IMG/VR virus record: IMGVR_UViG_3300017917_001937 | Span: 1-48,037 of that record | DNA length: 48,037 bases | DNA from: a virus | Reading direction: 5' to 3' (one strand) | Shown here: positions 2,938 through 44,040 of the stretch, in pieces | Layout: each line of letters begins with the position of its first letter | How positions within the stretch are numbered: the first letter of the stretch is position 1 | Notes under the pieces: generated by a model | What the model saw: only the letters and a program-made list of their open reading frames with translations | Told to the model about the DNA's origin: nothing | Databases searched by the model: none | Position numbers and translations under genes: made by a program

Positions 2938-3976
2938 CACTGGTGAATATGATATACATTTAGATATACCTACAAATAATTATGTAGTATATAATTTATA
3001 TCCTATTCATTTAGAATACATTGTTGATTATGTAAAGCAAATTGCTGTTCAAGACAAAAACACATTAATTATTTTGCTCGGTGTGTTTCAGTGCATACAA
3101 GAAAGAGATTTTTGGGTAAAACCGTTAAGCGAGTTTTGTCAGTCTATCTCAAATCCGGTAATAGTGTTTACAGGGAAATTGACTAACGATTCTGAATATC
3201 AATTACCTGATATTAACTTTGCGTACTATCGTTTTGGTATGTTTGATTTGGTTAGTAATTTACACTGGAACAGACGGATTGAAAATCAACATAGAGACTG
3301 GACTCGCGATTGTTATAAAACTCGCCGAAACAAATTTTATTGGGCAAGCAGCAAAGATTGGTACACACGAAGATACATGCTCGCAGGGCTAATTAACAAT
3401 GAGCTGTTACAGTTTGGTTTAGTTAATTATAAATGCATGCATACTGACATTCCAGGGCCTTGGATACAGCATCGTATTGAATCAAAGTGGGCCGCACATA
3501 TTGATCAAGAATGTCAATCAATTGCTCATAGAATTCCCTTGCCGGCAATTGACGATACCGTGGAATTTACACAAACAGATGTAAATTTTTATCTTGATAG
3601 TTATATAGGAATAGTGACAGATACATTTTTTGATAATGGTGTTTTTATAAGTGAAAAAATTTACAATGCTATAAATTATCAACAGCTATTTTTTTATGTA
3701 GGATATCAAGGCACATTGCAATATTTGCGTGATCAAGGATATTGCACATTTGACGATATCATCGATACCAGTTACGATAATATTGTAGAGCCTGGCGCAA
3801 GACTGGTAGCAGCAAGAAAAAGCTTGATTGATTTTTTACAGCAGCCGTTTGATGTTATTAAGGCGGCATATGAAAAAAGCATCCCTGCAATAAAACACAA
3901 TAAACAATTAGTACAGCAACAAAGACCCGATTTACAATTTACTCAGTGTATTCGAGATTATTTAAATGAAAATTGA
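2930..3976 (+). CDS. glycosyltransferase-like protein with GT10-like C-terminus
   Basis: A 348-residue soluble protein. Its C-terminal part (about residues 225-300) has SEKIYNAINYQQLFFYVGYQ, then GTLQYLRDQGYCTFDD and SYDNI. This layout recalls the sugar-nucleotide binding end of fucosyltransferase-like (GT10) proteins (SEKIxxxIxxxxxPFxxxGxxxxLxxL). The N-terminal half is not recognisable. The context of sugar enzymes and a GT9 protein supports a glycosyltransferase role. The donor could be a sugar made by this cluster. The assignment rests on one C-terminal motif region. Confidence 0.65.
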   Translation: MYDTGEYDIHLDIPTNNYVVYNLYPIHLEYIVDYVKQIAVQDKNTLIILLGVFQCIQERDFWVKPLSEFCQSISNPVIVFTGKLTNDSEYQLPDINFAYYRFGMFDLVSNLHWNRRIENQHRDWTRDCYKTRRNKFYWASSKDWYTRRYMLAGLINNELLQFGLVNYKCMHTDIPGPWIQHRIESKWAAHIDQECQSIAHRIPLPAIDDTVEFTQTDVNFYLDSYIGIVTDTFFDNGVFISEKIYNAINYQQLFFYVGYQGTLQYLRDQGYCTFDDIIDTSYDNIVEPGARLVAARKSLIDFLQQPFDVIKAAYEKSIPAIKHNKQLVQQQRPDLQFTQCIRDYLNEN

Positions 3977-4853
3977 ACGACCACAACAGATATTAGTTAG
4001 ACGCAGAGCTGCACTTGGTGATGTAATTATGAGTACCGGTGTTGTTAGAGAGTTAAAAAAGAAATACAATTGTGAAATTGACATAGCAACAGAATTTCCT
4101 AATGTTTTTGACAACAATCCACATGTGCGAGCCATATATCACACTGATGCAATGCCCGAGGTAAAAAATTATGATCTATACATTAATTTGGATGATGCCT
4201 ACGAATATAATCCTCTCAATCATTATGTGGATAGCTATTTTTATCGCGCTTTTGGTACATCAACAGTGGATAACAAATCAGTAGAACTATTTGAAACTGA
4301 GTTTGATAAGGACATTGTTAATTCATTTTGCCAAGACAACGAACTAGATAGATATATTGTGATTCATATCAGACAATGGTTTTGGGAATTAAAAAACATG
4401 TCTTGGGAGACTTGGTTCGCTGTGTTTGAACAATTGTTTACTGAGCGCACAGATTTTAAAATTGTGTGCGTTGGTAGCGAACGCGACGGATTTGTAGATC
4501 ATCCGTTGTTTGTTGACGCTAGGGGCAAACTGTCTATCCAACAACAAAAATTGTTAATGGATCATGCCATTTGTTTTGTTGGTATTGATTCGGGTCCATT
4601 TCATGTGGCAGCAGCAAGTCGGACACACATTATTGCATTACAGACCCATTTAAAACCTGAGCGTATTTTACCCTATCGTAGAGAAATGCTCGGTTATAAT
4701 ACAACAGCAATTATGAGCGCAGTTGAGTGTGCAGGTTGCAACGACAATCAAGCGAGGCCCGTTAGACAAGTGGTATGCAAATACGGTGACTATCGCTGCA
4801 AAGACAGCTTTGACGCAGAGAGAATCGCCAATAATATTTTAGAGTTACTATGA
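3966..4853 (+). CDS. glycosyltransferase family 9 (heptosyltransferase-like)
   Basis: 295 residues. The N-terminal RRRAALGDVIMSTGVVRELKK matches the GT9 start (R-x-GALGD-hh-xTP-hhR-Lk), and CFVGIDSGPFHVAAA near residue 205 matches the family's IGxDSGpxHhAaa motif. GT9 enzymes such as WaaC/WaaF transfer heptose from ADP-heptose to LPS core. ADP-heptose genes lie 1-3 kb downstream, so a heptosyltransferase role is plausible. The C-terminus is cysteine-rich (CAGCNDNQ, CKYGDYRC), which is common in phage and marine relatives. It overlaps the preceding gene by 11 bases. Confidence 0.85.
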   Translation: MKIERPQQILVRRRAALGDVIMSTGVVRELKKKYNCEIDIATEFPNVFDNNPHVRAIYHTDAMPEVKNYDLYINLDDAYEYNPLNHYVDSYFYRAFGTSTVDNKSVELFETEFDKDIVNSFCQDNELDRYIVIHIRQWFWELKNMSWETWFAVFEQLFTERTDFKIVCVGSERDGFVDHPLFVDARGKLSIQQQKLLMDHAICFVGIDSGPFHVAAASRTHIIALQTHLKPERILPYRREMLGYNTTAIMSAVECAGCNDNQARPVRQVVCKYGDYRCKDSFDAERIANNILELL

Positions 4854-5065
4854 ATTGTGGAAAGTGTTGGCGATGTCTTGACGGGTTGAAAGATGAATCA
4901 GGATTATTAGTAACAATGGGGCGAATGATATTATGTCCCAATTGTGGCAATAAAAGATGTCCACACGCTACTGATCATAGACTAAAATGTACAGGCAGCA
5001 ACGAATCGGGGCAAGTTGGTAGTATATATTCAGATTATAATTTTAAGACAGAACATGATTTTTAA
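4850..5065 (+). CDS. small cysteine-rich zinc-ribbon protein
   Basis: 71 residues with eight cysteines: CGKCWRC at the start, CPNCGNKRCPHATDH in the middle and a CTGSNESGQ tail. The paired CxxC motifs should bind zinc. Similar small proteins ending in SNExGQxGS occur in many phages of Gram-negative hosts, without known function as far as I recall. The ATG overlaps the GT9 stop by 4 bases and the gene overlaps the next by 11, so it sits inside the operon. Confidence 0.72.
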   Translation: MNCGKCWRCLDGLKDESGLLVTMGRMILCPNCGNKRCPHATDHRLKCTGSNESGQVGSIYSDYNFKTEHDF

Positions 5066-5790
5066 ACATTCAGGAACGTTTGGCGATTTAATTTACGGCC
5101 TAAGCGTGGTCAAAAAAATGGGCGGCGGCACTTTCGCTATTCAATTGGACAATTTGGAAAAGTGTGTAGCCCAATACGGTTATAGACCTGACGAAGTTGA
5201 TCCTGCACACCAAGGTAGATTTCGAAATGCAGACTTTGATTTACTTAGACCCTTGTTGACCAGACAAAGTTACAGTATGGACTGGAGATCAAGATGTTGA
5301 TCTAGACCGTTTTCGTGGAGTACTATTCCGCGGATTTGAGGGAAACTATGTTCAAGCATATCACATGACATTTGGTTTACCTTTTGCGCCCGAAGTATTA
5401 AATGAAACTTGGTTGGAAGCAGATGCAAAAAAGATAGCGGCCGTTGTTATTAACAGAACATTTAGATATCGTTGCCCCAATGGTACAGGCACCTGGCAAG
5501 GACTGTTAGAGCAAGCCAATATCACACAAAATGGTGTCTTTGTTGGTACGCCAGATGAACACGAGGATTTTGTAAAACTTACAGGATTTAGTGTACAATA
5601 TTATGCTGTGCAAGACTTTAAAGAACTAGCTGATGTGATTGCAGGTGCAGATTTGTTTATGGGCAATCAAAGTGCTGCATACAGTATTGCAATGGGACTT
5701 GGTAAAAGTTCTGTGCTAGAAACAATTAAAATTAAACCGTTAGCAAACAATGAGTGTTATTTCCCAAGATCCAACTGCCAATACTTCTAA
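5055..5790 (+). pseudogene. GT9-like glycosyltransferase gene split by a +1 frameshift
   Basis: Two open segments in neighbouring frames form one protein of about 244 residues. The first runs from ATG 5055 (MIFKHSGTFGDLIYGLSVVK, a GT9-like GxxGDhI start) to TGA 5298-5300. The second is open from 5260 through 5790 and continues smoothly (TVWTGDQDVDLDRFRG). Its end contains IAGADLFMGNQSAAYSIAMG, the GT9-like donor-site region. The shift must lie in 5260-5297 and is equivalent to one extra base. It could be a sequencing or assembly error, a real disabling mutation, or translational frameshifting; no classic slippery heptamer was noticed. Function would be sugar transfer in the same pathway. Confidence 0.7.
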
Positions 5791-6523
5791 AGTACGAATA
5801 CTTTTGATTGGCGACAATGGTATTGATCAATACCAATACGGCACTGTGACTAGAATCAGTCCCGAAGCACCTGTACCTGTGGTCAACTATACACACACTG
5901 TGACTCGACCTGGTATGGCCGCCAACGTTAAAGATAATTTAGAAAAACTGGGTTGCGAGGTCGAGTTTGTACACGGTATCAAAACTTCAATTAAAACTCG
6001 TGTGATCGATGAGCGTACTAAACAGCATTTAGTTAGGATAGATCAAGATTCGCCTAGTCGTGCCGTAAAAGTTGACTATACAGACATAGACCACTATAAT
6101 GCAATAGTCGTCAGTGATTATAACAAAGGAAGCGTTGATTATGACACGGTTGAAAATCTTCGCTATCGTTATTCGGGTCCGATATTTGTTGATACAAAGA
6201 AAAGCGACTTGGCCCGCTTCGAGGGCTGCTTCGTCAAAATCAACCAAGTGGAATTTGAAGCGGCTAAAACATATCCTACCGATCTTATTGTTACCCTCGG
6301 TAGGGATGGTGTAAGATATAAAGAACACAAGTTTTCTACTCCACAAGTAGAGGCGTTTGATGTATGCGGGGCAGGTGATACCTTTTTATCTGCTCTCGCA
6401 TACAACTACGTTTTATCACAAGATATCGCGTCTGCAATTCAATTTGCAGCACGAGCAGCCAGCATAACTGTACAACACATTGGTGTTTATAGTCCTACAT
6501 TAGAAGAAATTGAACGAGCATGA
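5750..6523 (+). CDS. HldE kinase-domain-like PfkB sugar kinase (heptose-7-phosphate kinase)
   Basis: 257 residues. GDNGIDQYQYGTVTRISPEA (21-40) followed by PVPV is close to the RfaE/HldE domain I start. RPGMAANVKDNLEKLG matches the sugar-binding RxGGAANVAxN motif but has PGM where GGA is usual. GAGDTFLSALAY (207-218) is the PfkB catalytic signature with the base Asp at 210. It should phosphorylate heptose-7-phosphate at C1. It is clearly shorter than typical HldE kinase domains (about 320), with a compacted middle. It overlaps the frameshifted GT9 gene by 41 bases and lies beside the adenylyltransferase and epimerase genes. Confidence 0.86.
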   Translation: MSVISQDPTANTSKVRILLIGDNGIDQYQYGTVTRISPEAPVPVVNYTHTVTRPGMAANVKDNLEKLGCEVEFVHGIKTSIKTRVIDERTKQHLVRIDQDSPSRAVKVDYTDIDHYNAIVVSDYNKGSVDYDTVENLRYRYSGPIFVDTKKSDLARFEGCFVKINQVEFEAAKTYPTDLIVTLGRDGVRYKEHKFSTPQVEAFDVCGAGDTFLSALAYNYVLSQDIASAIQFAARAASITVQHIGVYSPTLEEIERA

Positions 6524-6888
6524 CTAGATTAGAGGGTTTTGTTGAAAAAGGTTGGGGTCACGAATTGATATGGGCTACCAACGATAAGTACTGCGGTAAA
6601 ATGATGGCGTTCAAAACAGGTGCCCGTTTTAGTATGCATTTTCACAAAGATAAAGATGAAACTTGGTATGTACTATCTGGTAAATTTGTTGTCAAATGGA
6701 TTGATACTACCAATGCTCAGCAAAATGAAAAAGTATTAGTAGAAGGAGACACTTGGCATAATCCGCCTTGTATGCCACATCAACTGGTATGTTTAGAACA
6801 AGGTACAGTTGTTGAAGTATCAACACCAGACTCAGTAGAGGATAATTATCGTGTACAGCCCGGGGATAGCCAGAAGAGTAATAGTTAA
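6520..6888 (+). CDS. cupin-domain protein (mannose-6-phosphate isomerase type II-like)
   Basis: 122 residues forming a single cupin. FSMHFHKDKDETWYVLSGKF (residues 39-58) holds the metal-binding H-x-H and downstream Glu of cupin motif 1. GDTWHNPPCMPHQL gives the motif 2 histidine. KGWGHELIW at the start is typical of phosphomannose isomerase-like cupins. It probably isomerises or binds a phosphosugar. It overlaps the kinase stop by 4 bases (ATGA) and the adenylyltransferase by 38 bases, so it is inserted exactly between the two halves of what is one HldE protein in many bacteria. Confidence 0.82.
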   Translation: MTRLEGFVEKGWGHELIWATNDKYCGKMMAFKTGARFSMHFHKDKDETWYVLSGKFVVKWIDTTNAQQNEKVLVEGDTWHNPPCMPHQLVCLEQGTVVEVSTPDSVEDNYRVQPGDSQKSNS

Positions 6889-7270
6889 CGGTACCTTCGA
6901 CATCTTGCATCGTGGGCATATCGAAATGCTTAATTTTGCACGTAGTCAAGGTACTTACTTGCTAGTGGCAATTGATAGTGATCGTCAAGTACGGGAATTA
7001 AAAGGCGCGAGTCGACCTATTAATCGTCAAGAAGATCGTAAGTTTCAATTGGAAAATTTAAAGTGTGTTGACGCTGTTTGGATTTTTGACACCCAACAAG
7101 AACTAGAACACATCTGCAAATTGTACAAGCCTCACTTGATGGTCAAAGGGTCGGATTATCAAGGAAAAAAGATCACTGGATCTGAGTACTGTGAAGATAT
7201 CAAGTTTTACAATCTAGTACCCAACTATTCAACGAGTAAAATAATTGAAGATATTAATAACCGGAAGTAG
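6851..7270 (+). CDS. HldE adenylyltransferase-domain-like protein (heptose-1-phosphate adenylyltransferase)
   Basis: 139 residues of the cytidylyltransferase fold: VNGTFDILHRGHIEMLNFAR contains the HxGH nucleotide-binding site at 20-23. DSDRQVRELKGASRPINRQE and VKGSDYQGKKITGSE match the RfaE2/HldE C-terminal domain. It should make ADP-heptose from heptose-1-phosphate and ATP. Start is GTG 6851, the only upstream in-frame start, with AGAGGA eight bases before it. As a free-standing protein it resembles organisms where hldE is split. It overlaps both neighbours. Confidence 0.85.
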   Translation: MYSPGIARRVIVNGTFDILHRGHIEMLNFARSQGTYLLVAIDSDRQVRELKGASRPINRQEDRKFQLENLKCVDAVWIFDTQQELEHICKLYKPHLMVKGSDYQGKKITGSEYCEDIKFYNLVPNYSTSKIIEDINNRK

Positions 7271-8030
7271 AGGATTCATTGGTAGCCATGCTGTAAGCTT
7301 TTGGCACAAAATTGGCGGCCACGAAATTTACACATACGAGTGGGACGAGCGTACCTTGCCTCGGATTGAAGGCTTGGATTGGGTATTTCACTTTGGTGCT
7401 ATTAGCAGTACTACCGAACGCGATGTCGCTAAAGTGATGCGTCAAAATGTAGACTTCTCTATCTGGCTTTACGAGGAATGTAGAAAATATGATGTCAATC
7501 TTCAATGGAGCAGCTCGGCTAGCGTGTATGGCCTTGGTCGAGACTTTAAAGAAACCGCACCAGTTGATCCTAGAAGTCCGTACGCATGGAGTAAGTATCT
7601 ATTCGAACACTATGTCGAACGCAATCCGACGCATGTTCGGTGCCAGGGATTTAGATACTTTAATGTTTATGGTGCAAATGAGACGCACAAAGGCTCGCAA
7701 GCCAGCCCATATCATCAGTTTGCTGTTCAAGCACAATCTACTGGTATTATAAAAGTATTTGAGGGTAGCGAACATTTCCACAGAGACTTTGTACCAGTTG
7801 AAGATGTGCTAAAAGTACAGTTTCAATTTATCAATCAAGATGTAGAAGAAAACGGCGTCTGGAATATTGGCACAGGGCGAACAAGATCCTTTATGGATAT
7901 TGCACAAGAAAAAGCCAATCAGTACGGTGCCTTAATAGAACGAATCCCTTTCCCGGAGCATCTGATTCCTAGCTATCAACGCTACACTTGTGCAGACTTA
8001 ACAAAATTGCAACAAACTTTGGGCGGTTGA
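7245..8030 (+). CDS. hldD: ADP-glyceromanno-heptose 6-epimerase-like protein
   Basis: 261 residues. GSRGFIGSH (7-15) is the NAD(P)-binding GxxGxxG. HFGAISSTTERD is the HldD-specific HxGAxSSTTE motif. YAWSK (113-117) is the catalytic YxxxK. RYFNVYGANETHKG and VFEGSEHFHRDFV are further HldD hallmarks. It interconverts D-glycero and L-glycero forms of ADP-heptose. It starts at TTG 7245 inside the end of the adenylyltransferase gene and is about 50 residues shorter than the bacterial enzymes. Its stop codon lies within the -35 box of the next promoter. Confidence 0.9.
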   Translation: MKILITGSRGFIGSHAVSFWHKIGGHEIYTYEWDERTLPRIEGLDWVFHFGAISSTTERDVAKVMRQNVDFSIWLYEECRKYDVNLQWSSSASVYGLGRDFKETAPVDPRSPYAWSKYLFEHYVERNPTHVRCQGFRYFNVYGANETHKGSQASPYHQFAVQAQSTGIIKVFEGSEHFHRDFVPVEDVLKVQFQFINQDVEENGVWNIGTGRTRSFMDIAQEKANQYGALIERIPFPEHLIPSYQRYTCADLTKLQQTLGG

Positions 8031-8055
8031 CAAATAAATCTATTTTCGCTACAAT
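8027..8055 (+). promoter_or_regulatory. sigma70-type promoter for the 8107 gene
   Basis: TTGACA at 8027-8032, 17-base spacer, TACAAT at 8050-8055. This is near-consensus for the host housekeeping sigma factor. It begins inside the stop region of hldD and should start a transcript near 8062, opening the early gene region. Confidence 0.88.
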
Positions 8056-8062
8056 AGAGATC

Positions 8063-8082
8063 AGTAGCTAATTCCGGCTACT
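8063..8082 (+). other. 5'-leader hairpin
   Basis: AGTAGC at 8063-8068 pairs with GCTACT at 8077-8082 around an 8-base loop, right at the predicted transcript start. It may protect the 5' end; no riboswitch was recognised. Confidence 0.45.
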
Positions 8083-8106
8083 ATTTACAATTGGAGAACT
8101 ACCATC

Positions 8107-9189
8107 ATGTCAGCCCGAGTATCGCGGCCACTGATTGATGTTGTTAACGACGCTCGTCGTGACATCAAAGCGGCCCTTAATCTTTCAGACCAGCAATTTG
8201 ATTCAATGATGCAACAAATTAGAGCTAGAATGACGGCTCAAAATTTGAACTTTGCACGAGGTATGCATTTTGAGTCCGTAGATAATGTGTGGTTGGACTA
8301 CGAAGTTCAGCGAAATGTTATTATCAAACATTTAATTGACATTATTAAGAAGTTTGATATTCGTATTATTGAACCTGCTGCTACAGCTAATTTTATTGGC
8401 CGTGCCCTTAAAAAAGAACCGTGGCGCAAAGACAAGTTGTTTGCCTATAATGGCCAACATCGTTGCATTCTGTTGTGCTTGCTAGGATACGACAAGGTGC
8501 CAGTTATTATTAACGATACAGAAGATCTTGCTTTTCCTTCTGTGGCATTTATTATTAATAATCATAGCGGCATTAAAAAAGTTGGTAAACCCGACTTGCA
8601 CCAGAATTGGTTGTATCAGCATAAGTTGGAGTTATATACACAAGAGACTGAATTGGCCCGCAATGTGCAAGATGCTTTTGATAGCGCCAATGTTCGGCTA
8701 ATTGAAGCTAGCAAAGCCAAAAACACTAGTGATTATTGGTTTAGTCATTTTGACTACGCTTATAAGTCTGCCAGCATTGATAAATCTGGCAATACCACTC
8801 GGCAAATTCTAGACGCAATTACAATTGCATGGCCGGCTGATCAAGAAATTGATCAAGGTGTTTTTATTGGACTTTACTATATGAACACTATTGTTAAAAG
8901 TCTGAATAAACGAATGCCAAAAAATTGGATGCAAGATGTAACAGAAACATGTGCTGTTAGTTTTTCATCTAGTCACGATTGTCATGCAGCCGCTAAACGC
9001 CAATGGGAATATTTTGTTGGTAGTGCATGGTCTGCTCCGCAAGGCATGTTTAAATTTATGCGCGAAGTGTACATGCTTAATGGCGGCAAAATAGCAATAC
9101 CTAGCGAAAATCTAGATATTGGTGTACTAGCTAAAACATGGTGCGAGCCCAATCTTGTCCCGCAAGCATATGTAGAATTAAGAGCATAA
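8107..9189 (+). CDS. ParB/Srx-like fold protein
   Basis: 360 residues. AYNGQHRCILLCLLGYDKVPVII (residues 113-136) matches the ParB-like nuclease/sulfiredoxin pattern (DGQHRxxAxxxLGxxxVPVxV), where this loop binds nucleotide. The rest is helical and unrecognised, with several cysteines. Proteins of this superfamily act as CTP-dependent DNA-binding proteins, nucleases or modification regulators. It is the first gene after a strong early promoter, so expression early in infection is likely. The specific role is unknown. Confidence 0.72.
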   Translation: MSARVSRPLIDVVNDARRDIKAALNLSDQQFDSMMQQIRARMTAQNLNFARGMHFESVDNVWLDYEVQRNVIIKHLIDIIKKFDIRIIEPAATANFIGRALKKEPWRKDKLFAYNGQHRCILLCLLGYDKVPVIINDTEDLAFPSVAFIINNHSGIKKVGKPDLHQNWLYQHKLELYTQETELARNVQDAFDSANVRLIEASKAKNTSDYWFSHFDYAYKSASIDKSGNTTRQILDAITIAWPADQEIDQGVFIGLYYMNTIVKSLNKRMPKNWMQDVTETCAVSFSSSHDCHAAAKRQWEYFVGSAWSAPQGMFKFMREVYMLNGGKIAIPSENLDIGVLAKTWCEPNLVPQAYVELRA

Positions 9190-32110: not shown

Positions 32111-33490
32111 GTGAGTATAATTCAAGCTGTTCAAGCCGCAGTAGCAGGGGGAGGCGGACCTCCCCCGCCCCCACCTACATTGAATAATTATTTTTTTCAA
32201 GGAGCAAGTACTGCTTGGGGCACACAAAGTCAGTCGCCGACTCCAGCTAATCAGGACACACGATATCCTAACGGAGCTACTAATCAGGCATTATATTTTA
32301 ACGGATTAACTTGGACATTATCGCAGAGCTTAGGTTTGTGTAATGAAATAGAAGTTGATATGTGGATATATCCTGCCGCCAACAACTGCATAATAATGAC
32401 TGAACAAGATAACACTGTTGAAAATACTGGCTATACGTATGTCATGCTAGAGATTGACAGTAGCAATCAAATACGAGCACGCAGTTGGCCGCAAAATGGA
32501 GGTAGTGCTTTAATTAGCGCACCTATTACACTAAATGCATGGCATCATGTTTATTTCCGTCATAGCGGCGGAATAGCAAGATTAGAAGTTGATGGAGCAC
32601 TATCAGGCACTGATATATACGATAGAGGTGCTCCAGGAACAACATACTTAGGCATTGGAACATTCTCACAAACAGGAATTACATCCAGTAGTAGATTTCA
32701 AGGTAAAGTGGACAGTGTGCAATTTAGAAGTTATAACTTTGTGGGCAGCAGCTGGGCTGGTAGCAATTTCCAGTATCGTCCATCTTTAATGGTTGAATTA
32801 GATGCCAATAACGGCAGTGCATACAACCAAAACAATCCAACTGTATGGAACGATACTAGCGGCAACGGATACAATGCTACACTTTATAATTCTCCTACAT
32901 ACTATAGCGCCGGTCCTAATTATTTTACCTTTGATCGCAACAGTTTGCAGTATGGCTTAGTACCAAATATAGGTAACTTGCCTAGATTTACTGTAGAAGG
33001 ATTGTTTAGGATATCGGAACCATACACTAATATTAGATCTACGGCGGTAGTGGCCACAGTATTTGATTTAGCAGACGATGCTAATATTGACTATGGCTAT
33101 GTTAATTATTGCATTGGCACTAACGGCAACGCGGAGTTTAATGCTTATTGGTATGGGCAGTTTTTTGATGGTGCGCTATGGAGACAACCAAACGCAGGAT
33201 TTGTAGGATACTCAAATACTTGGTTCCATGCTGTAGTAACTTACGATGGCGAAACACTACGATTCTATAAAAATGGTACACAGATTGGTTCTAGTGTTCT
33301 TTATTCAACTCCTCAGGCCAATGGCGGACCTGTTCGTATAGCTCGTCGTTGGGATGGGTACGATAATCAGTCTGACAACTATTTCCCAGGAGATATTGGT
33401 ATAGTGCGTATCTGGGCCAACGCTATGAGTCCCGGTGATGTTCAACAGCGTTATGCTGCGGCTGTTAATTTGGGTTACCCTGGGATCTAA
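32111..33490 (+). CDS. LamG/concanavalin-like adhesin
   Basis: 459 residues from GTG 32111, with AAGGAG upstream. A short helix is followed by GGGGPPPPPP, a flexible joint. Two LamG-type domains follow. The first (about 45-215) has ITLNAWHHVYFRHSGG and VDGALSG. The second (about 230-459) has NTWFHAVVTYDGETLRFYKN and MSPGDVQQRY. Such folds bind glycans, so this is probably a host-recognition protein of the fibre. It converges on the minus-strand QueC-like gene with a 26-base overlap. Confidence 0.84.
   Translation: MSIIQAVQAAVAGGGGPPPPPPTLNNYFFQGASTAWGTQSQSPTPANQDTRYPNGATNQALYFNGLTWTLSQSLGLCNEIEVDMWIYPAANNCIIMTEQDNTVENTGYTYVMLEIDSSNQIRARSWPQNGGSALISAPITLNAWHHVYFRHSGGIARLEVDGALSGTDIYDRGAPGTTYLGIGTFSQTGITSSSRFQGKVDSVQFRSYNFVGSSWAGSNFQYRPSLMVELDANNGSAYNQNNPTVWNDTSGNGYNATLYNSPTYYSAGPNYFTFDRNSLQYGLVPNIGNLPRFTVEGLFRISEPYTNIRSTAVVATVFDLADDANIDYGYVNYCIGTNGNAEFNAYWYGQFFDGALWRQPNAGFVGYSNTWFHAVVTYDGETLRFYKNGTQIGSSVLYSTPQANGGPVRIARRWDGYDNQSDNYFPGDIGIVRIWANAMSPGDVQQRYAAAVNLGYPGI
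32147..32166 (+). other. GC-rich hairpin in early coding sequence
   Basis: GGGGGAGG at 32147-32154 pairs with CCTCCCCC at 32159-32166 around a 4-base loop, 36 bases after the GTG start. It encodes the Gly-to-Pro joint and could slow ribosomes. Confidence 0.6.
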
Positions 33491-34076
33491 TGCCCTGTGC
33501 TGTTAGTTCGCGGCAACTGTGGCAGTACCCACAGGGTTTAATTGTTGTTTCTGTATATTGCGGAGTACGACAACTCCAAAACAGATTGCGTAGCGACTCT
33601 GGTAGCATACGATAAATTTCTATTTTAGTAGCGTTCATTACTGGGTATATCTTTTCTGCAGCGGTAAATGCTGAAAAAATTTTGTTGGCACGAAATCTGC
33701 GTTCTTCTAATCTTTGATTAGCGTCGTTAGCGGTCATGCCCATAGCTACTTTTTTAATCTTGGGGTCATTGTAACAAATAAAGCCAGCAAAGAAGTTCAT
33801 AGTATCTGTGTCGTAGAGAAATCCTGTGCCTATGTGCGGCCCGCGCATTTCGCTGTCAGTGTATTCAAAATCATAGCCTAGTCTGCGTATTTCTGCTAAG
33901 GCTAGATCTACAGCAATAGCTTCGGCTCTAGCACGATTTTCTACATTATGATTATGCACGTGATGTATATGCAAATCGTAATGTTTATATAATGGATTAG
34001 TAAGTATCGTCCATACTGTGCCTAGACTGTCTAAGCCTCCTGAATACATAACTAAAATTTTGTCTCGCGATTCCAT
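33465..34076 (-). CDS. QueC-like PP-loop ATPase
   Basis: 203 residues. The PP-loop SGGLDS is at 12-17. MGMTANDANQRLEERR corresponds to the QueC GxxxxDxxxYxD region. The C-terminus has FWSCR, then PCGYCHSCRE (Cys169, 182, 185, 188), the zinc site of 7-cyano-7-deazaguanine synthases. QueC makes preQ0 from CDG for tRNA queuosine or for 7-deazaguanine DNA modification in phages. No FolE, QueD, QueE or transglycosylase is in the window. The next minus-strand gene upstream overlaps by 25 bases. Confidence 0.76.
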   Translation of the reverse strand: MESRDKILVMYSGGLDSLGTVWTILTNPLYKHYDLHIHHVHNHNVENRARAEAIAVDLALAEIRRLGYDFEYTDSEMRGPHIGTGFLYDTDTMNFFAGFICYNDPKIKKVAMGMTANDANQRLEERRFRANKIFSAFTAAEKIYPVMNATKIEIYRMLPESLRNLFWSCRTPQYTETTIKPCGYCHSCRELTAQGIRSQGNPN

Positions 34077-43343: not shown

Positions 43344-43730
43344 ATGGCATATTCTGGTCAGGTCTTGGATCATTACGAAAATCCAAGAAACGTTGGTAAA
43401 TTAGACAAAAATGATCCACAAGTAGGAACCGGTCTTGTTGGTGCACCTGCTTGTGGAGATGTCCTGCAACTTCAAATCAAAGTAGAAAATGAAATTATCA
43501 CCGATGCGAAATTTAAGACATATGGTTGCGGTTCAGCGATCGCATCGTCGTCGCTTGTCACTACGTGGCTTAAAGGGAAGAGTCTTAATGAAGCGGCAGC
43601 AATTAAGAACACAGAAATTGCGGAAGAACTCGCGTTACCTCCAGTTAAAATACACTGTTCCATATTAGCGGAAGATGCAATTAAAGCAGCGTTATTAGAT
43701 TATAAAAACAAAAATGATACAACTAACTGA
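43344..43730 (+). CDS. iscU: IscU-type Fe-S cluster scaffold protein
   Basis: 128 residues, the full length of IscU. It begins SGQVLDHYENPRNVGKLDKN, close to bacterial IscU. All three cluster cysteines are present: GAPACGDV (Cys37, with Asp39), YGCGSAIASSS (Cys62) and KIHCSILAEDAI (Cys105). The bacterial LPPVK signature for HscA is present as ALPPVKIH. It assembles 2Fe-2S clusters on a scaffold for transfer. AAGGAG precedes the ATG. Overlaps IscA by 17 bases. An unusual host-type gene in a virion block. Confidence 0.92.
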   Translation: MAYSGQVLDHYENPRNVGKLDKNDPQVGTGLVGAPACGDVLQLQIKVENEIITDAKFKTYGCGSAIASSSLVTTWLKGKSLNEAAAIKNTEIAEELALPPVKIHCSILAEDAIKAALLDYKNKNDTTN

Positions 43731-44040
43731 ATTGGCAGCTAAAAAAGTAAAGCAGCAGTTGTCTAAGCGCGGTAAAGGACACGGTATCATGATTGGCGTT
43801 CGTACTACAGGGTGCTCTGGACTAGCCTATAAACTGGAATATGTTGATGCTCCTCCGGTTACACGTGATTGGTTTACGTATGAAAGCCACGGAGTAAAAG
43901 TCTGGGTAAACGGTAAAGATCATCCGTATGTTAATGGCCTTACCATGGATTACCGACGCCAAGGACTAAATGAAGGTTTTGAATTTATCAACCCTAACGA
44001 GCGTGACCGCTGTGGTTGCGGCGAAAGTTTTCGAGTTTAA
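43714..44040 (+). CDS. iscA: IscA/ErpA-type Fe-S carrier protein
   Basis: 108 residues, the usual A-type carrier length. TTGCSGLAYKLEYVD contains Cys34 and RCGCGESF gives Cys100 and Cys102, the three conserved ligands. LTMDYRRQGLNEGFEFINPN matches the family core. It receives Fe-S clusters or iron and passes them to client enzymes. Starts within iscU, so they are co-translated. Confidence 0.92.
   Translation: MIQLTELAAKKVKQQLSKRGKGHGIMIGVRTTGCSGLAYKLEYVDAPPVTRDWFTYESHGVKVWVNGKDHPYVNGLTMDYRRQGLNEGFEFINPNERDRCGCGESFRV

Follow-up and report, generated by a model that had tools for sequence, protein, structure and literature searches.

The window, positions 1 to 48,037 of the linear viral record IMGVR_UViG_3300017917_001937, is a fragment, so that the whole phage may encode more genes. 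Between positions 5750 and 8030 of its plus strand, four open reading frames (ORFs) with overlapping ends specify a kinase, a cupin, an adenylyltransferase and an epimerase, in this order. Three of these proteins recall the canonical pathway to ADP-L,D-heptose, which comprises GmhA, HldE or HldA plus HldC, GmhB and HldD, and the question raised by the locus is what a cupin does in their midst. It is likely that the cassette makes ADP-heptose from sedoheptulose-7-phosphate with the cupin performing the GmhA step, a reading in which we infer the activity of the cupin, the precise identity of the sugar made and where it is delivered. In a wider form that we hold to be reasonably probable, the cupin represents a second sedoheptulose-7-phosphate isomerase family, unrelated to GmhA and distributed among T4-like and jumbo phages, DPANN archaea and Patescibacteria, which gives phages a self-sufficient ADP-heptose pathway in heptose-free hosts such as marine Synechococcus; the cyanophage gene cluster T4-GC 306 would then encode the phosphatase of this pathway. 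Phage-borne ADP-heptose genes as such are already known, and it is the role of the cupin that appears to be new.

The three remaining enzymes of the cassette were assigned by profile comparisons. The top models were those of HldE domain I for the kinase (TIGR02198, 8.5e-45; also phrog_8133, 2.9e-83, and PfkB, 4.3e-18), HldE domain II for the adenylyltransferase (TIGR02199, 5.5e-36) and the heptose epimerase for the last protein (TIGR02197, 1.7e-61). ORFs and profiles thus agree with an earlier note on this DNA, which had described an HldE-like kinase, a cupin, an HldE-like adenylyltransferase and an HldD-like epimerase in overlapping order as an ADP-heptose cassette. All three scores are below the curated NCBIfam cut-offs (153 bits versus 345 for the kinase, 123.6 versus 181.5 for the adenylyltransferase and 208 versus 274.6 for the epimerase), which makes the enzymes, as judged from their sequences, divergent members of their families. 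Among proteins of the PDB, the only strong relative of the kinase profile was HldA (4e84, 2.1e-28) and the best match of the epimerase was HldD of E. coli (1eq2, 3e-41), in place of the unrelated PfkB and dTDP-sugar enzymes that had been named as a contrary outcome; the adenylyltransferase matched a putative cytidylyltransferase (5x9q, 5.3e-19).

Loss of catalytic residues, a further outcome named as contrary, was not seen in the kinase or the epimerase. The kinase contains the motifs SPEAPVPV at residue 37, GMAANV at 55 and GAGDTF at 207, and the epimerase keeps the Rossmann glycine motif GSRGFIG, the YxxxK motif (YAWSK at 113), SSSASVYG and HKGSQAS with the HKGS lysine of E. coli HldD. The HxGH motif of the adenylyltransferase is likewise present (NGTFDILHRGH at 13). 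Both the kinase and the epimerase are shortened, as had been noted. The former has 257 residues compared with 315 model positions, the deletion being flanked by the 'RPGMAANV' motif and the 'KTR..D' segment, and its hinge reads GM instead of GG (GMAANV in place of GGAANV); the hinge and one segment are altered across the whole phage family. The epimerase, with 261 residues, falls short of the 310 of E. coli HldD, having lost sequence behind the Rossmann glycine loop and at its C-terminal end. The window kinase is accordingly best described, on its profile matches, as heptose kinase-like and not as a proven equivalog. The separation of kinase and adenylyltransferase, which had been described as a split of HldE, turned out to be the usual form among these loci. 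In some phages among the loci L055 to L097 (e.g. L082, 6725-7876) a long kinase-type ORF of about 380 to 430 amino acids occurs with no separate adenylyltransferase called, and it may represent a kinase-adenylyltransferase fusion.

The cupin matches the profiles Cupin_2 (2.8e-10), MannoseP_isomer (4.7e-6) and phrog_7851 (5.5e-42). Both cupin motifs are intact, and the metal-binding set of three histidines and one glutamate (H40, H42, E47 and H87) is invariant in 74 relatives. Further residues, many of them charged, are invariant in these 74 sequences (K10, E15, K27, K45, E99, D108 and R111), and the invariant set as a whole is peculiar to the family (K10 W12 G13 E15 Y24 G26 K27 ... S101 T102 D108 R111). 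An AlphaFold model computed from the 74 sequences is a confident monocupin (predicted local distance difference test score 93.8), and the Foldseek search with this model yielded many cupins, including a D-lyxose isomerase with bound fructose (7nzp) and the phosphomannose isomerase of T. kodakarensis (7zvy; TMt 0.81), an archaeal enzyme of about 110 amino acids and thus of a size similar to that of the window cupin. For the archaeal cupin, the highest-ranking NCBIfam model is GMP_PMI. The window cupin accordingly shares the monocupin fold and the motif of three histidines and one glutamate with cupin sugar isomerases, namely D-lyxose isomerase and the small archaeal type II-like phosphomannose isomerase, but differs from them by its low identity (16-20%), its own invariant residues and its heptose gene context. 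Taken together, context and fold suggest that the cupin is an aldose-ketose isomerase acting on a sugar phosphate. The name cysteine dioxygenase, which the PHROG annotation applies to the family, was rejected, as it has no support from Pfam or NCBIfam profiles and 4qm9 is merely one of many cupins in the list of fold matches. In the literature searched, nothing relevant to a cupin acting as GmhA in heptose biosynthesis was found.

The association of the cupin with the heptose genes extends far beyond the window. Among cyanophage and marine phage records compared by accession, all 31 with a window-type kinase also have the cupin, a count that excludes four divergent or non-phage matches. In viral loci selected by the kinase, the cupin is on the same strand in 73 of 81 cases with a negative median distance, i.e. 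with overlapping frames, and when at least 4 kb are available on each side the cupin is found in 46 of 48 loci and a SIS-type GmhA in none of the 48. Fifteen kinase-selected viral loci combine kinase, adenylyltransferase, epimerase, GmhB and cupin without a SIS protein. Conversely, viral loci selected by the cupin contain the kinase and/or the adenylyltransferase in 69 of 80 cases and the epimerase in 54. The genes repeatedly occur as a group, in varying order. The cupin is thus not an unrelated insert, as its presence in 46 of the 48 well-flanked loci shows; having been regarded in the earlier note as interrupting HldE, it proved to be the most consistent partner of the cassette and the best candidate for the GmhA step.

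A comparison with the canonical pathway indicated that the window contains a cupin in place of a SIS-fold GmhA and that no GmhB is encoded on the fragment, though the complete phage genome may still include one. The SIS-type GmhA domain (PF13580) was matched neither in the window nor in eight complete cyanophage genomes at E<=1, and no match above the cut-off occurred in 80 further viral contigs, some of them larger than 300 kb. Searches of the 48-kb window with an alignment of GmhB, a HAD-IIIA protein with a DxDG motif, and for the mini-HAD family phrog_1238 were negative as well, in line with the statement that GmhA and GmhB equivalents are missing from it. The cupin may work like GmhA though it has no SIS_2 domain and is no SIS-fold GmhA member.

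These searches bear on the annotation of the known cyanophage genes. The 'phosphoheptose isomerase' of cyanophages (T4-GC 306, phrog_1238, about 110 amino acids; e.g. L003, 8746-9090) contains the HAD motifs DxDGT and TARG and no SIS domain, its profile matches a capsule biosynthesis protein (9iqw, 3.7e-18) and 1xpj (2.4e-12) in the PDB, and its NCBIfam match is a capsule biosynthesis phosphatase model. The annotation of T4-GC 306 as GmhA was consequently rejected: on these motifs and profiles the label is wrong and the gene encodes a mini-HAD phosphatase, which makes it a candidate enzyme for the GmhB step. With the mini-HAD reassigned and no PF13580 match, four of the five ADP-heptose steps in cyanophages are covered by known enzyme types, GmhA is missing and the cupin is left over as an additional conserved protein. 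About 25 of the 80 cupin-selected viral loci have a GmhB gene near the cupin, which NCBIfam confirmed for one of them, L082.

The distribution of the cupin in cellular genomes provides a further line of evidence. When 84,980 prokaryote genomes were searched with an alignment of the cupin, 34 loci were obtained. Woesearchaeota, Nanoarchaeota and a single Nomurabacteria genome have the cupin at the head of a tight operon of the order cupin-HldD-kinase-GmhB-adenylyltransferase; in the representative Woesearchaeota operon L124 (cupin at 7983-8336) the kinase and the adenylyltransferase score above their curated NCBIfam cut-offs, whereas HldD and GmhB come near theirs. When the archaeal phylum was sampled by the kinase only, the kinase was detected in 67 of 279 genomes, and 60 kinase neighbourhoods were scored with profiles built for this analysis. 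Within 4 kb of the kinase, these neighbourhoods contain a SIS gene in 27 cases, the cupin in six and both in none. The slot directly upstream of HldD-kinase is taken by a SIS gene in nine loci and by the cupin in three, or in twelve if cupin-selected loci are added, and the three slot SIS proteins that were tested (L194, L199 and L201) exceed the TIGR00441 gmhA cut-off. The same exchange is apparent in Patescibacteria, where eight SIS-kinase operons face one cupin-kinase-GmhB-adenylyltransferase operon (L344 with the cupin against L340-L343 with SIS). Among 53 operon-like loci chosen by the kinase alone, gmhA is present in 30, the cupin in seven, both in none and neither in 16 (Fisher p=0.0016, or p=0.012 without two divergent cupins), p-values that treat related genomes as independent and are indicative only; more weight attaches to the exchange of the two genes in one and the same slot. 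A tree of the cupins resolved few branches, with phage and cellular sequences intermixed; phage and DPANN-type cupins cluster apart, and L206 and L238 are divergent. Moreover, a conserved divergent gene ('KPKIAISL.K.LLDLVDSKVDG') adjoins archaeal cupin operons upstream of the cupin in L109, L124, L127 and L131.

The GmhA step is chemically the phosphomannose isomerase reaction with one additional carbon. In the proposed pathway, the cupin would convert sedoheptulose-7-phosphate to D,D-heptose-7-phosphate as a non-orthologous GmhA and the kinase would add a phosphate at C1. The GmhB phosphatase step would be supplied by the remaining phage genome or by the host, relatives using a true GmhB or a mini-HAD encoded beside the cupin. 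The adenylyltransferase would then form ADP-D,D-heptose, which the HldD-like epimerase would convert to ADP-L,D-heptose, and the heptose would be moved to a glycan of the host surface or the virion during infection, perhaps by the GT9-like protein encoded upstream (Table 1). Candidate destinations comprise lipopolysaccharide, capsule, virion and DNA, of which the earlier note had named all but the capsule.

Several observations weigh against this pathway. Oxalate decarboxylase, quercetinase and KdgF are likewise among the structures and profiles matched by the cupin, and the fold therefore fails to single out isomerases. GmhB was found neither in the window nor in its relatives of 70.7 kb and 54.5 kb. 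The phage kinases lack about 25 residues and the GG hinge of PfkB proteins, and their substrate specificity may have shifted. On the cellular side, three archaeal genomes with a cupin operon contain a GmhA-like SIS protein elsewhere, scoring under the gmhA cut-off. Around many of the archaeal kinases neither isomerase is encoded, and metagenome-assembled genomes are incomplete; heptose genes are also missing from the vicinity of a few cellular cupins (L102 from Marinoscillum pacificum, L105, L111 and L122).

The cupin might instead catalyse a later step, modifying the activated heptose as an epimerase or a ketoisomerase in the way known for RmlC-type cupins of the Campylobacter capsule, with the host providing the GmhA step. 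Such an assignment has precedent, since C3/C5 cupin epimerases work on nucleotide-activated heptoses in C. jejuni (PMC7949155), sugar modification is common among cupins and the fold matches include CapF, a capsule enzyme with a cupin domain; we nevertheless consider it unlikely, as the window cupin has no match to the RmlC family in Pfam, the cupin takes the gmhA slot in two phyla in which the pair never occurs together, and gmhA is absent from most of the sampled picocyanobacterial genomes. It is also conceivable, if rather improbable, that the cassette has drifted to another activated sugar, the shortened GM kinase and the trimmed HldD-like enzyme acting on a different sugar phosphate made by the cupin. 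The sub-threshold scores of all three enzymes and the family-wide changes in the phage kinases fit such a drift, whereas the HldD active-site pattern with HKGS and YxxxK is retained, archaeal cupins of the same family are located with full-length HldE, HldD and GmhB proteins, and a true GmhB adjoins the cassette in many phages. That the cassette is mere cargo or a decaying remnant without a role in infection is very improbable: cyanophage LPS (lipopolysaccharide) genes were regarded as either functional or stuffer DNA by Sullivan et al. 2010, who left the matter undecided (PMC3037559), and one neighbouring gene of the window is frame-broken, but the four frames of the cassette are open, their catalytic motifs are conserved in phages that have diverged widely, and the genes repeatedly stay together despite their varying order.

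The cassette is no phage oddity, since it consists of families that have long been annotated in cyanomyoviruses and that are present in hundreds of viral contigs. The cyanomyovirus LPS cluster of P-SSM2, S-SSM7, S-SM2 and S-CAM1 (T4-GC 304, 305, 306, 307 and 308) comprises five families, an adenylyltransferase, a mini-kinase, the mini-HAD, a cupin and an HldD-like epimerase, four of which are shared by the window. The latter differs in its gene order, in the lack of the mini-HAD and in belonging to a different phage group with many IMG/VR relatives, and its cupin is 33-39% identical to those of cyanophages. In the cyanomyovirus annotations, the cupin is misnamed as cysteine dioxygenase or nucleotidyltransferase, besides the misnaming of the mini-HAD. 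Co-occurrence of T4-GC 304, 305, 307 and 308 in three distant phages already suggested a functional link (Sullivan et al. 2010, PMC3037559). Additionally, a heptose kinase, a 'phosphoheptose isomerase' and an epimerase were reported for SynMITS9220M01 (PMC7378029), and rfaE is carried by pelagimyophages (PMC7029224). Cyanophage S-SCSM1 encodes a mannose-6-phosphate isomerase described as type II (PMC9602691) and resembles the window in that both would have a phage-encoded isomerase of phosphorylated sugars; it does not represent an earlier discovery of the cupin, as this phage is absent from the 35 phage records with a match to the window cupin.

With respect to the hosts, sampled genomes of the picocyanobacterial family contain a gmhA-like gene in 29 of 151 cases and an HldE-like kinase in 22 of 151. 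The LPS of marine Synechococcus WH8102 and CC9311 contains neither heptose nor 3-deoxy-D-manno-octulosonic acid (PMC4515613), and the WH8102 phages Sf-CH8 and Sf-FS3 have the cassette. Since few picocyanobacterial genomes contain gmhA and the LPS of WH8102 is devoid of heptose, such phages cannot rely on a GmhA of the host. A phage that gives heptose to a heptose-free host must bring the whole pathway. If the proposed role of the cupin is correct, an enzyme can be named for a seemingly missing pathway step and the annotations in dozens of cyanophage records can be corrected. It would also add a new isomerase family to ADP-heptose synthesis, the first enzyme of which is under study as a target for antibacterials, and would open to experiment the old question of whether marine phage 'LPS genes' are functional and supply the host with a sugar that it does not normally produce.

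Table 1. Genes of the cassette and its upstream neighbours in the window.
Feature	Position	Strand	Length and remarks
HldE-like heptose kinase	5750-6523	+	257 aa; TIGR02198, phrog_8133, PfkB
Monocupin	6520-6888	+	122 aa; Cupin_2, MannoseP_isomer, phrog_7851
HldE domain-II-like (HldC) putative heptose-1-phosphate adenylyltransferase	6851-7270	+	139 aa, GTG start; TIGR02199
HldD-like ADP-heptose 6-epimerase	7245-8030	+	261 aa, TTG start; TIGR02197
GT9-like (heptosyltransferase family) gene	3966-4853	+	PF01075, TIGR02201
Frame-broken upstream gene	5055-5790	+	no family match

Of the two GT9 genes that had been proposed upstream of the cassette, one is supported by matches to PF01075 (1e-9, over the C-terminal part) and TIGR02201 (1.2e-12), and its product is a possible user of ADP-heptose. 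The other is broken by a frame change near position 5300 of the window, which is an error of the assembly or else a genuine lesion, and has no support as a GT9 gene: its counterpart in the closest relative L253 (6292-7038; kinase 89% identical) is intact and has no Pfam match. A GT9 heptosyltransferase is not a constant partner of the cassette, being located nearby in six of the 81 kinase-selected viral loci, all from close relatives of the window phage, and the heptose acceptor therefore probably differs among phages. A clear GT9 gene is located upstream of two of the cellular cupin operons. The window also contains a gene for a protein of the sugar C-methyltransferase type (1350-2594; Methyltransf_13, Methyltransf_23 and Methyltransf_14 domains) next to a cut-off dTDP-glucose 4,6-dehydratase-like gene (177-674), indicating a wider sugar-modification island.

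The replication genes of the window are T4-like and encode a UvsW-like helicase, a primase, a DnaB-like helicase and a ribonucleotide reductase. At positions 43344-44040, a NifU/IscU-like gene (phrog_8429, 8.8e-40) adjoins an IscA/HesB-like gene (phrog_17776), both of the iron-sulfur assembly type. Finally, a QueC-like protein (PF06508, 9.5e-7) is encoded on the minus strand at 33465-34076 and possibly points to 7-deazaguanine chemistry in this phage.

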